Shown here: piece after piece, positions 11,832 to 15,180 of the stretch
Layout of the letters: each line of letters starts with the position of its first letter
Numbering within the stretch: the stretch's first letter is position 1
Source of the DNA: Streptomyces sp. NBC_01445
GTDB taxonomy: Bacteria; Actinomycetota; Actinomycetes; Streptomycetales; Streptomycetaceae
Direction: 5' to 3'
Length of the DNA stretch: 64,000 nucleotides
NCBI RefSeq assembly: GCF_035918235.1
Contig: NZ_CP109485.1
Span: 248,001-312,000, forward strand
Made by a program: the position numbers and the translations under genes
The notes under the pieces: generated by a model
Database searches by the model: none
Seen by the model: only the letters and a program-made list of their open reading frames with translations
Told to the model about the DNA's origin: nothing

Positions 11832-11992
11832 AGGTGCGCGAGCAGCATGGCGTCGGCATCGGCGAAGTCCAGCCCGGAGACCTCGCGGATACGGCGCAGC
11901 CGGTAGCGCATGGTGTTGGGGTGGATGTGCAGGGCCTCCGCCGCGGGGCGCAGCCAGTCCATGCCAGCCACGGCCAGATCCAGGTCGCGATC
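11828..11992 (-). pseudogene. PucR-type regulator, C-terminal helix-turn-helix only
   Basis: Reads MDWLRPAAEALHIHPNTMRY then RLRRIREVSGLDFADADAML and stop: the C-terminal HTH_30 domain of PucR/CdaR-type regulators (H-x-N-T-(M/V)-R-Y-R-L). The upstream part is gone and is replaced by transposase debris next to the IS5-type element. Its position after the permease-hydrolase pair suggests it once regulated them. Confidence 0.7.
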
Positions 11993-11994
11993 CC

Positions 11995-12050
11995 AATGCC
12001 GAACCCGGCGGCGAGCTGGGCGTAGGTGTCGCCACAGCGCAGGTAAGACC
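11995..12050 (-). pseudogene. IS5-type transposase helix-turn-helix scrap
   Basis: Eighteen codons read SYLRCGDTYAQLAAGFG, the conserved N-terminal HTH (T-Y-x-Q-L-A-A-G-F-G) of a different IS5-family transposase. It is sandwiched between the PucR stump and the left inverted repeat of the next element. Confidence 0.5.
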
Positions 12051-12074
12051 TAGGCCGTCTCTTTCGGATCATGC

Positions 12075-12425
12075 CTAGACAGCGTCGCCGTCCGCCCGCA
12101 CCCAGGCCAGCTGCAGGTCGCTCAGCGGGGGTACGAACCCCTCTGGGAACATCAGCATGAGCGGCTGCGGCCACATGTTCTCCGGCCCGTGCTCTGGGCA
12201 GTGCAGAGCGATGAGATGTGCCCCTTCCCCGCAGGACTCGTGCCAGTAGTGCCGATCATGCTCCTGGCAGAAGTACCCGTAGCTTGAGCAGTCGTCCTCA
12301 TCTCTCGGCTCATAGAACCTGGGATCACGGACGATCTGGGTCACCGGCTCCTGCCGATTGAACCTCGGGATGGGCCGGGGATCACGCCACAGCAATCGGG
12401 GAGGAAGCACGCGCCCATGCTGCAC
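12075..12425 (-). CDS. Passenger gene: small Cys/His-rich protein
   Basis: A 116-residue protein with Cys and His clustered in the middle: CSSYGYFCQEHDRHYWHESC, then H-L-I-A-L-H-C-P-E-H-G. That spacing could bind zinc. The acidic C-terminus ends WVRADGDAV. It lies wholly inside the IS inverted repeats, divergent from the transposase, and its stop is only 4 bp from the left repeat. No family was recognised. It could be an accessory transposition factor, a host-interaction protein or a captured gene. Confidence 0.6.
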   Translation of the reverse strand: MQHGRVLPPRLLWRDPRPIPRFNRQEPVTQIVRDPRFYEPRDEDDCSSYGYFCQEHDRHYWHESCGEGAHLIALHCPEHGPENMWPQPLMLMFPEGFVPPLSDLQLAWVRADGDAV

Positions 12426-12466
12426 CGAGGCCCACTCCTGCGGATCACTGGGTCGTTGGTCCGGTC

Positions 12467-13311
12467 ATGTCGTTGACTGATGTGCAGTGGTCGCGGATTG
12501 AGCCGCTGCTTCCGGACCGGACTCCGCGACGCGGCGGGCGGTGGCGTGATCACCGGCAGATGATCGAGGCGATCGAGTGGAAGTACCGCACGGGCTCACC
12601 CTGGAAGGGCATGCCCTCCGAGTTCGGTTCGTGGAAGGGCGTCTATAACCGCTTGCGGAAATGGGCGCTCGATGGCACGTGGAAGCGGGTGTTCACCGTT
12701 CTGCTCGCCCAAGCGGACGCCGAGAGGGATCTCGGCTGGGTCGTCGCGGTCGACTCAACTATCGTCCGTGCCCACCAGCACGCCGCCGGGGCCCGCAAAA
12801 GGGGGCGCTGGCTGGCGAGCCAGAGGACCATGCCCTCGGCCGGTCCCGTGGCGGGCTAACCACCAAGGTCCACTTGGCGGCGGACGACCACTGCCGGTCT
12901 CTCGCTTTCGTTTTGACCCCGGGACAGGCCGGTGACGCGCCCGCATTTGAGCAGGTCATGGCCACAATCCGGGTGCCTCGCCCACTCGGGCGGCCTCGAG
13001 TGAGACCGGCCATGGTCCTGGCGGACAAGGCCTATTCCTCGCGCGCGATCCGTGACCACCTCCGCAGACGTGGCATCCGGGCGGTCATTCCCCAGCCCTC
13101 CGACCAGATCGCCAACCGAAAGCGCCGCGGCCGCCACGGCGGAAGGCCACCCGGATTCGACAAGGCTGCCTACAGACAGCGGAACACCGTGGAACGGTGT
13201 TTCAACAAGCTCAAGCAGTGGCGCGGCCTTGCGACCCGGTATGACAAGACCGCGACCATGTACCAGGCCGGACTCCACCTCGCGGGCATCCTCATCTGGG
13301 CCGCTCGGTGA
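12467..13311 (+). CDS. IS5-family transposase made by -1 frameshift
   Basis: The first frame (12467-12859) starts MSLTDVQWSRIEPLLPDR and contains the first catalytic Asp in VVAVDSTIVRAHQH. The second frame (ending 13311) has the second Asp in LADKAYSS and the Glu in NTVERCFNKLKQW. The frames join by a -1 shift at the run caaaaggggg near 12795-12806, a plausible slippery site and the arrangement expected for the IS427 group. With the shift the product is about 280 residues and looks catalytically intact. Confidence 0.8.
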
Positions 13312-13345
13312 TCCGAAAGAGACGGCCTAGCGCTGGGTGGCTCAA

Positions 13346-13465
13346 GTGCCCGTTTCGAAGGTCGAGTTGTACGCGGCGATACGCCATGACGCTCGGGTCG
13401 AAGGGATGTCCTGCAGGGCTTTGTCGGCCAAGTATGGGGTGGGCCGCTTGTGGCTCTGCCCGTGA
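13346..13465 (+). pseudogene. IS21-family IstA N-terminal fragment
   Basis: Thirty-nine codons read KVELYAAIRHDARVEGMSCR then ALSAKYGVG and stop. This is the N-terminal helix-turn-helix of an IS21-type IstA transposase. It lies immediately right of the IS5-type element and probably marks an older insertion. Confidence 0.6.
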
Positions 13466-13480
13466 TCCGTCGGATGGAAC

Positions 13481-14530
13481 TCAGGGGTGCATGACGATCT
13501 TTCCCACGTGCTCCCTGCGGGAGAGCTCTTCCTGCGCCTGAGCGGCCTGGTCCAGTGGGAAGGTCGCTGCGATGACGGGCTGGACCTCTGCCCGACGAGC
13601 CAGGTCCATGAGGAGGCCGAAGTGTGCGGGCGTGTGCATGGAGGACCCGACGACCTGGGCGTTGTGCAGGTAGAGGCGGCGCACGTCGAAGGTCACGTCG
13701 TAGCCGCCGAGTGCGCCGGCGATGACCCACCGGCCCCCTTCGCGCAGCAGCGGCAGCCCTTCACTCACCAGCTCGCCGGCCACGACGTCGAGTGCGACGT
13801 CGATGCCCTCCGGGGCGGCAGTGCGGATCTGCTCGGCGACATCTCCTGCGCGGTCGATGACTTCGTGCGCGCCTGCTTCGCGCACGGCGTCGATCTTGGG
13901 TCCGCTACTGATGGCGAGCACCCTTGCGCCGCGCGCACGGGCGATCTGCACCAGCGCGAGGCCGACGCCGCCGGACGCTCCCGAGACCAGGGCGGTTTCT
14001 CCCTTCTGCAGCCGGCCTCGCTCGATCATGCCCAGCGCCGTGCCGTAGGCGGTCGGCAACGTCGCGAGCTGGTCGTCCGTGAGCGGGGATTCCGTCACGT
14101 CATGTACACGCTCCACCGGTGCCGTCACGTACTCGGCGTATCCGCCGTCGCGTTCGCTCCCCATCAGGCCCACCGGGTGGGCGTCCGGCCCTTCGGTGTC
14201 GTAGATCGCGGGGTCGACAACCACTCGGCGTCCGACAAGGCTCCCCTCCCCTCCGGTCCCGACGGCCACGACACGGCCAGCCACGTCGGCGCCCTGGATG
14301 CGCGGGAAGTCGATCGGGCCGCGCCAGCCCGACAGCGCCTTCGGGTCTCCCGGACGGCCGTAGGCGCCCTCCCGAGTCCACAGGTCGGTGTTGTTCAGGG
14401 CTACCGCGCCGACCTGGACCAGTACCTCTCCCGCCCGCGGGGCAGGGACGGCGACCTCTGTCAGCTCAAGAACCTCCGGCCCTCCGTGCCCTGTGATTCG
14501 CACCGCTCGCATGAACTGGGACGCACTCAT
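13481..14530 (-). CDS. Zinc-type alcohol dehydrogenase-like / quinone oxidoreductase
   Basis: A 349-residue medium-chain dehydrogenase/reductase. The N-terminal GroES-like domain has GEVLVQVGAVALNNTDLWTR and FPRIQGADVAGRVVAVG. The Rossmann motif GASGGVGLALVQIARARGA is mid-protein. The structural-zinc cysteines are absent, which fits NADPH-dependent quinone reductases. The ATG at 14530 has GAGGAGG 7-8 bp upstream, so longer versions are unlikely. It is transcribed divergently from a TetR gene with a shared operator between them, so it is probably the repressor's target. Confidence 0.88.
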   Translation of the reverse strand: MSASQFMRAVRITGHGGPEVLELTEVAVPAPRAGEVLVQVGAVALNNTDLWTREGAYGRPGDPKALSGWRGPIDFPRIQGADVAGRVVAVGTGGEGSLVGRRVVVDPAIYDTEGPDAHPVGLMGSERDGGYAEYVTAPVERVHDVTESPLTDDQLATLPTAYGTALGMIERGRLQKGETALVSGASGGVGLALVQIARARGARVLAISSGPKIDAVREAGAHEVIDRAGDVAEQIRTAAPEGIDVALDVVAGELVSEGLPLLREGGRWVIAGALGGYDVTFDVRRLYLHNAQVVGSSMHTPAHFGLLMDLARRAEVQPVIAATFPLDQAAQAQEELSRREHVGKIVMHP

Positions 14531-14553
14531 CGCTTGAACCTCCTCGCAGGTAT

Positions 14554-14591
14554 ACTGATCTGTGAACATCTCACACCGTACACCGATCAGT
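14554..14591. promoter_or_regulatory. Inverted-repeat operator between oxidoreductase and tetR
   Basis: Half-sites ACTGATCTGTG (14554-14564) and CACCGATCAGT (14581-14591) are inverted copies with one mismatch, spaced so both divergent promoters lie within reach. The position and symmetry suit binding by the adjacent TetR-family repressor. The right half-site overlaps the Shine-Dalgarno side of tetR, suggesting autorepression. Confidence 0.6.
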
Positions 14592-14604
14592 GAAGGGGCC
14601 CGCA

Positions 14605-15180
14605 GTGCAGGAAGCTCGGCCATTGACGCCGGCCGGCCGCCGCATCGTGGCGGCCGCAGAGGAGCTGTTCTACAACCGCGGAATCACAGCGGTCGGCGTG
14701 GATCTGATCGCTGAGCACTCAGGGGTGACCAAGCGGACCCTGTACAACCAGTTCGGTTCGAAAGACCACCTCGTGGCGGCTTACCTCACGGAACGCGACC
14801 AGCGCTGGCGGTCACTCGTCCGTGCCGCCGTCGACGTCGGCGACACTCCCGCGGAGGCCGTCACCGCACCATTCGAAGCACTGCGGACCTGGAGCGAAAC
14901 CAACACCCGCGGATGCGCCTTCATCAACGCGCTCGCCGAACTCCCGGACCCCTCGCATCCCGCACACCGCATCGCCGCGAACCAGAAGCTCTGGCTGCTG
15001 AACCTGTTCAAGGAACTCGCCGTCACAGCGGGCTGCTCGCACCCGGCCACCCTCGCCACCCAACTCCTCGTGCTGCACGAGGGCGCTGTCGCCACGCAGC
15101 CCCTCTCGCTCGACACCCTTCCGGAGAGCACTGACCTGGCACGAGCCCTGGTTCAAGCCGGCACATCGCCCCGCCACTAG
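14605..15180 (+). CDS. TetR/AcrR-family transcriptional repressor
   Basis: A 191-residue regulator. The N-terminal helix-turn-helix reads RRIVAAAEELFYNRGITAVG then DLIAEHSGVTKRTLYNQFGS, followed by the usual variable helical ligand domain. The GTG at 14605 is preferred over the GTG at 14590 because AAGGGG lies 6 bp upstream. Divergent from the quinone-oxidoreductase-like gene, so it probably senses that enzyme's substrate or an electrophile. Confidence 0.85.
   Translation: MQEARPLTPAGRRIVAAAEELFYNRGITAVGVDLIAEHSGVTKRTLYNQFGSKDHLVAAYLTERDQRWRSLVRAAVDVGDTPAEAVTAPFEALRTWSETNTRGCAFINALAELPDPSHPAHRIAANQKLWLLNLFKELAVTAGCSHPATLATQLLVLHEGAVATQPLSLDTLPESTDLARALVQAGTSPRH

Follow-up and report, generated by a model that had tools for sequence, protein, structure and literature searches.

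Why does an insertion sequence (IS) of the IS5 family hold, within its own terminal inverted repeats, a second gene that faces away from its transposase, and is that gene part of the transposition machinery or is it cargo? The question is raised by an element in a 64,000-nucleotide stretch of Streptomyces sp. NBC_01445, which we call the window. Transporter IS (tIS) and mobile insertion cassettes (MICs) figure as known kinds of passenger-bearing elements in two reports (PMC3129680, PMC9330008). In our judgement such elements blur the line between simple IS and transposons, and the entry of a passenger, its switch from one carrier to another and its domestication are seldom visible. For the element studied here, plain relatives, two composites that differ in their transposase bodies, short forms lacking a transposase, relics and settled copies are all available for comparison, so that passenger capture and exchange become directly testable.

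A first-pass annotation, made from the sequence alone, had described the locus as an IS5-type element in which perfect inverted repeats enclose a transposase and a divergent passenger gene, here called P. The features are collected in Table 1. The inverted pair 12050-12071/13309-13330 is 22 nt long and 100% complementary (the first of 12 inverted pairs between 11500 and 14000), in agreement with that description. Without its palindromic CTAG the repeat reads GGCCGTCTCTTTCGGATCA, and the element proper covers 12053-13327 (1275 bp). Besides its terminal inverted repeats it holds a single IS transposase, laid out in two open reading frames (ORFs) that overlap with an offset of -1 (ORF list and sequence). 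The first frame matches DUF4096 (PF13340, E 9e-26), the second DDE_Tnp_1 (PF01609, E 3e-19), and both pass the cut-off of the NCBIfam model NF033580 (transpos_IS5_3); a run of A4G5 is the probable slippage site. The domain matches and the whole-length copies elsewhere thus uphold the placement as an element of IS5 type that encloses a passenger gene. We take the element to belong to the IS427 group, the name used in the first-pass annotation. IS427-like elements insert at CTAG/YTAR with a short duplication. CTAG stands at both boundaries of the window copy, and TA adjoins both ends in seven of the nine measured element copies, being missing at an end in L072 and L030. The source genome contains ten matches to the element, and only the window copy is whole.

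Table 1. Features of the element, with positions in the window
Feature	Position	Strand	Remark
CTAG, left boundary (target; TA or CTAG duplicated)	12050-12053	.	
Outer left end, GGCCGTCTCTTTCGGATCA	12053-12071	+	Part of the P cassette; 12050-12071/13309-13330 inverted pair
Passenger gene P, counted from the conserved GTG (about 111 codons)	12075-12410	-	Start at 12425 gives 116 codons
CAGCAT, resembling a -10 box, six bases ahead of the probable leaderless P start	12417-12422	-	
Decayed inner left end, 4 mismatches	12429-12447	+	Corresponds to the left end of plain kin
Transposase, first frame, DUF4096	12467-12859	+	ORF, PF13340, NF033580
Transposase, second frame, DDE domain	12661-13311	+	Joined to the first frame by a -1 shift
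A4G5 run, probable -1 frameshift site	12797-12805	+	Judged from sequence
Right end, inverted and perfectly matching the outer left end	13309-13327	-	
CTAG, right boundary	13327-13330	.	

P is a real gene, more than a chance reading frame, because it has 46 homologs at E ≤ 1e-3 (51 candidates) and because whole-length copies of the element exist elsewhere. Its stop codon (12075-12077) lies 3 nt from the left repeat and not 4 as annotated, and the annotated start (GTG at 12425, 116 codons) is probably wrong as well. In most full-length homologs the first codon corresponds to codon 6 of the 116-codon ORF (GTG, 12410), which is GTG in 33 and ATG in 8 of the 43 copies compared. A box precedes this codon by six bases, reading CAGGAT or CAGAAT in 29 of the 43 (17 and 12, respectively) and CAGCAT in three others; on both grounds we place the probable start at 12410, which gives about 111 codons. 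By its position and letters the box looks like a -10 box, which would serve a leaderless start.

A profile search with the passenger protein had been proposed with the first-pass annotation. It yielded homologs, 90 proteins being listed at E ≤ 0.01 with Streptomyces, Kitasatospora, Streptacidiphilus and Embleya as named sources, and no known family: no Pfam, NCBIfam or PADLOC model matched the protein, PHROGs gave nothing convincing, and neither PDB nor viral structures gave a match to the predicted structure at E ≤ 0.001 (mean pLDDT 93.2 for the model of P0001; 93 to 55 across five P models). P is a protein family that is conserved in Streptomyces and described by no library used in this analysis. 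Among 56 homologs picked for fold work from 91 retrieved, C46, H56, C65, H70, C76 and H79 (window numbering) are invariant and C53 is at least 90% conserved; in the window protein and all 46 first hits, the invariant residues are C53, H56, C65, H70 and H79, with C46 and C76 at least 90% conserved. Zinc binding is plausible from this pattern. In one homolog (P0053) the frame continues through the apparent outer end and the C-terminus gains MIRKRRPG, so that an end repeat can become coding.

How P came to lie inside the element can be read from its relatives. The element DNA matches something in 277 of 295 Streptomyces genomes; for loci without P, the best matches listed start at query 364-421, about window 12413-12470, and not at the outer end. 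Among 27 measured loci (L044-L070, with L051 carrying P), the distance from one end-like sequence to the other is 897-904 bp in 21 and exactly 899 bp in 13 of these, mostly with CTA and TAG as the bounding letters; one end is poorly placed in the remaining six and in a few of the 21. P is missing in 26 of 30 fetched kin loci and present in four, which bears out the statement that elements of this group normally hold only the transposase. The left end of the plain kin of about 899 bp corresponds to the decayed inner end of the window element (12429-12447). P was therefore added between this inner end and a new outer end.

P was found in 26 of 392 genomes of the genus, in 20 of 394 genomes of the family (4 of 17 genera) and at 31 loci of the species collection, and is absent from the one genome labelled as the same species. 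None of the 26 P genomes carries two whole copies; three had a second, partial match. From 84 locus records, including the window, 56 distinct P loci were obtained by collapsing on identical P stretches. Thirteen of these are fragments, several with stops, and were dropped (L040, L041, L094-L099 and L115-L119); the remaining 43 were sorted into architecture classes, which are our own labels.

In the first architecture P is divergent from the transposase. The element is of complete length at three loci (window, L100 and L013, although the transposase of L013 reads as broken) and is reduced to short forms without transposase in L072 (475 bp) and L017 (438 bp), which keep about 60 bases of the far part of the element and look like deletion products. 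Nine further loci are relics, of which L015, L029 and L106 have inner and outer ends with no adjoining transposase hit and L014 has the inner end only. In the second architecture P lies downstream of the transposase and is co-directional with it; three loci are complete (L027, L084 and L110) and seven are relics. One P locus shows an outer end only, and at 18 no IS is seen. In both architectures, the outer end follows the P stop codon at a distance that is typically three bases. Of the ten first-architecture copies with both ends scorable, nine have the more mismatched end on the inside and one has a tie, as measured against a consensus that resembles, and so favours, the outer ends; a search of the second architecture for an inner end with at most 5 mismatches found none. 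In the P tree, nine of the ten second-architecture rows fall within a 100/99 set of ten rows that includes one IS-less row, with L101 adjoining, and first-architecture rows are scattered over several groups, mixed with IS-less rows. P was also seen on two linear Streptomyces plasmids (L171, 2441-2850; L172, 2438-2810) with decayed ends, the outer end having 3 mismatches in L172 and being visible only by eye in L171. The 5.3 kb read around them holds no transposase of this kind, but transposases from other families are annotated close to the L171 copy.

The element moves as a unit together with P. The window, L100 and L013 copies each measure 1275 bp between the ends, in three genomes, and a second version of 1272-1274 bp is present in three genomes. 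The window copy and L100 are 89% identical over 1276 aligned columns, and L027 and L084 are 98.5% identical over 1272 nt; the flanks of the latter pair (up to 1 kb) show no similarity at E ≤ 1e-3, and the same holds for L100 and L013. In G019 the flanks of L027 are syntenic and about 115 bases apart, with the element absent; searches for an empty site gave none for the window copy in 61 genomes and none for L100 in 41. The expectation that the gene travels with the ends is thus confirmed by whole-length copies elsewhere, above all by the near-identical pair L027/L084 between unrelated flanks. Neither of the two outcomes named as speaking against it occurred: some other copies do carry P, and the left repeat does not stem from an unrelated insertion because it is common to the three 1275-bp copies, even though copies of about 899 bp exist.

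Within the first architecture, P and the transposase do not share one history. Synonymous divergence was used as the stronger test for the first-architecture pair, as it should depend little on selection on the protein. Between L100 and L013, dS is 1.04 for the transposase and 0.15 for P, with mismatches at 227 of 842 against 22 of 374 positions (Fisher 1e-19); between the window copy and L013 it is 1.15 and 0.33. The control pair, window and L100, gives 0.29 and 0.37 (Fisher 0.20). From this discordance, P and its outer end form an exchangeable module. In the transposase DNA tree, window and L100 make up a branch of their own (100/97), L013 groups with eight plain elements in a set of nine (99/92), and a third set (100/99) unites the second architecture with plain elements; L051, labelled plain in this tree, is the L027 element. 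Forcing all six P-bearing transposases into one clade is rejected (AU p 0.0015). The same constraint on the three transposases of the first architecture is not (AU p 0.121), and the swap inside the first architecture therefore rests on the dS contrast. Far ends of the second architecture read GTTTC in four of four, as in plain kin, and its outer ends GTCTC in six of eight, as in the first architecture, so the outer end of the second architecture probably arrived with P. Altogether, at least two and probably three transposase bodies have received the cassette, which lies in either orientation relative to them. This exchange, the inner end, the second architecture and the forms without transposase all go beyond the first-pass annotation. 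Identity climbs toward the cassette near the transposase start, a gradient that suggests recombination there. Inversion between end repeats, as described for other insertion sequences (PMC3004938), could flip the body and leaves the different body unexplained.

Without any moving cassette, a resident chromosomal P might have been captured at least twice, independently, by different IS427-like elements. The two architectures do differ in their transposase bodies and have opposite gene orders, the copies in Embleya, an outgroup, are without IS, and 14 of the 18 IS-less loci have no end trace. Yet the outer end is equally distant from the P stop in both architectures, outer ends are mostly GTCTC although the far end of the second body is GTTTC, and the dS of P and transposase is discordant inside the first architecture, which together make this account unlikely, though it keeps some weight.

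P often outlives its element. Its dN/dS is 0.19 in the first architecture (36 pairs), 0.27 in the second (28 pairs), 0.32 among four chromosomal copies (6 pairs), 0.38 among three relics (3 pairs) and 0.27 in a mixed clade (10 pairs); in these five groups, which cover 29 of the 43 copies, P is under purifying selection, also where no transposase is present. Only one of the 43 copies has an early in-frame stop (L020), and five others end within the last few codons. L026, L032, L033 and L087 are alike in both flanks and represent one chromosomal site kept in four species. Some part of its flanks was matched in 51 of 61 genomes (G388 and relatives), and both flanks with room for P were found only in G388 and G033 among the matches listed; in G010 the flanks are about 0.2 kb apart, too near for P, and the P copies of G012, G024 and G029 sit away from this site. 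Four of the 18 IS-less loci (L024 and L034; L028 and L077 on the inner side) have end traces better than about 95% or more of the local background windows, where chance would give one or two. The other 14 show no end trace above background, and P may therefore first have been a chromosomal gene, captured perhaps more than once.

Because P is kept at many loci after the element has died, we regard the element as the vehicle and P as its cargo, not as part of the transposition machinery. That P is instead a regulator or accessory factor of transposition, for instance one that binds the ends or the transposase and is kept for tuning the element, would fit its place within the ends, its divergent start a few bases from the inner end in the first architecture, and its association with more than one related transposase body. 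P nevertheless stays open and under purifying selection at loci with a wrecked or absent transposase and at the four-species chromosomal site, and 26 of the 30 fetched kin loci manage without it. A regulatory role is for these reasons improbable, and the effect on transposition that the first-pass annotation suggested for P is unlikely. Mere neighbourhood, in which an unrelated gene happens to lie between a plain IS and a solo end that is accidental or older, has the plain-kin end at the inner end in its favour but is refuted by whole units of 1272-1275 bp that recur in six genomes, with unrelated flanks in the two pairs compared (L027/L084 and L100/L013).

The window element is likely a transporter IS of the IS5 family (IS427-like) whose P gene is host-serving cargo on an exchangeable cassette. 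It is built from a plain IS of about 899 bp to which a cassette of about 375 bp, comprising P and a fresh copy of an end, was added outside its own left end, and the old left end became the degenerate inner end. The transposase would pair the far end with the outer end, the inner one being poor, and P would be carried along. The first capture may have occurred by end-skipping past the inner end. Cassettes may have been exchanged through homologous recombination at the conserved start of the transposase, or else by an inversion or a transposition event between ends. Transcription of P is probably leaderless and driven by its own -10 box, and the product is probably a small metal-binding protein that helps the host in some conditions; we favour such a role over that of a transposition regulator.

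A wider reading, for which the odds seem to us somewhat below even, is that P and its outer end are a plug-in module of IS5-family elements: a cassette of about 375 bp between two like-oriented element ends that leaves one body and joins another in either orientation, moves without transposase as a short form and settles as a host gene. In the same tentative reading, P would be the founder of a new family of small proteins that bind metal, whose fold may not have been solved before and which actinomycetes would have gained repeatedly.

ISEcp1-type elements capture adjacent genes through an alternative end, and their transposase family differs from that of the element studied here. The first capture of P may likewise have skipped the normal end for one further out, whereas the alternative end is here fixed and inherited by the unit, and only the fixed result is visible. 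Like its IS427-like relatives in the IS5 family (transpos_IS5_3), the window element has a two-frame DUF4096/DDE transposase, CTAG at the boundary and plain kin of about 899 bp, but it is 1275 bp long and has a third end and an extra gene. In tIS (PMC3129680, PMC9330008) a passenger gene unrelated to transposition lies inside the ends of an IS, and the window element likewise has a passenger inside its ends, one that probably has no part in transposition. It differs in that the passenger has no Pfam, NCBIfam or PADLOC match and no convincing PHROGs family, and in that the cassette, beside which a relict inner end persists, brings its own outer end and occurs on different bodies, on either side of them. 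L072 and L017 resemble MICs, with a passenger between IS ends and no intact transposase gene; the window copy retains its transposase and so is not a MIC. As far as the literature was searched, both the P passenger family in IS5-type elements and a cassette with its own end, on different transposase bodies and on either side, are new.

The surroundings of the window copy offer some minor observations. About 65 bases before the element (11983-12047) match a sequence that is repeated in several Streptomyces genomes (at least seven places in G025) and continues differently past the insertion point; a broken repeated gene apparently surrounds or adjoins the window copy. Further left, a short open stretch on the minus strand (11832-11966) presumably resembles the C-terminal helix-turn-helix of a PucR-type regulator, although the 45-residue piece had no Pfam match. 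On the right flank, a plus-strand fragment (13337-13459) is what we take to be the start of an IS21-type istA; its 41 residues had no Pfam match. The gene adjoining the element beyond it (13481-14623, minus strand) is zinc-binding alcohol dehydrogenase-like (ADH_N, ADH_zinc_N).
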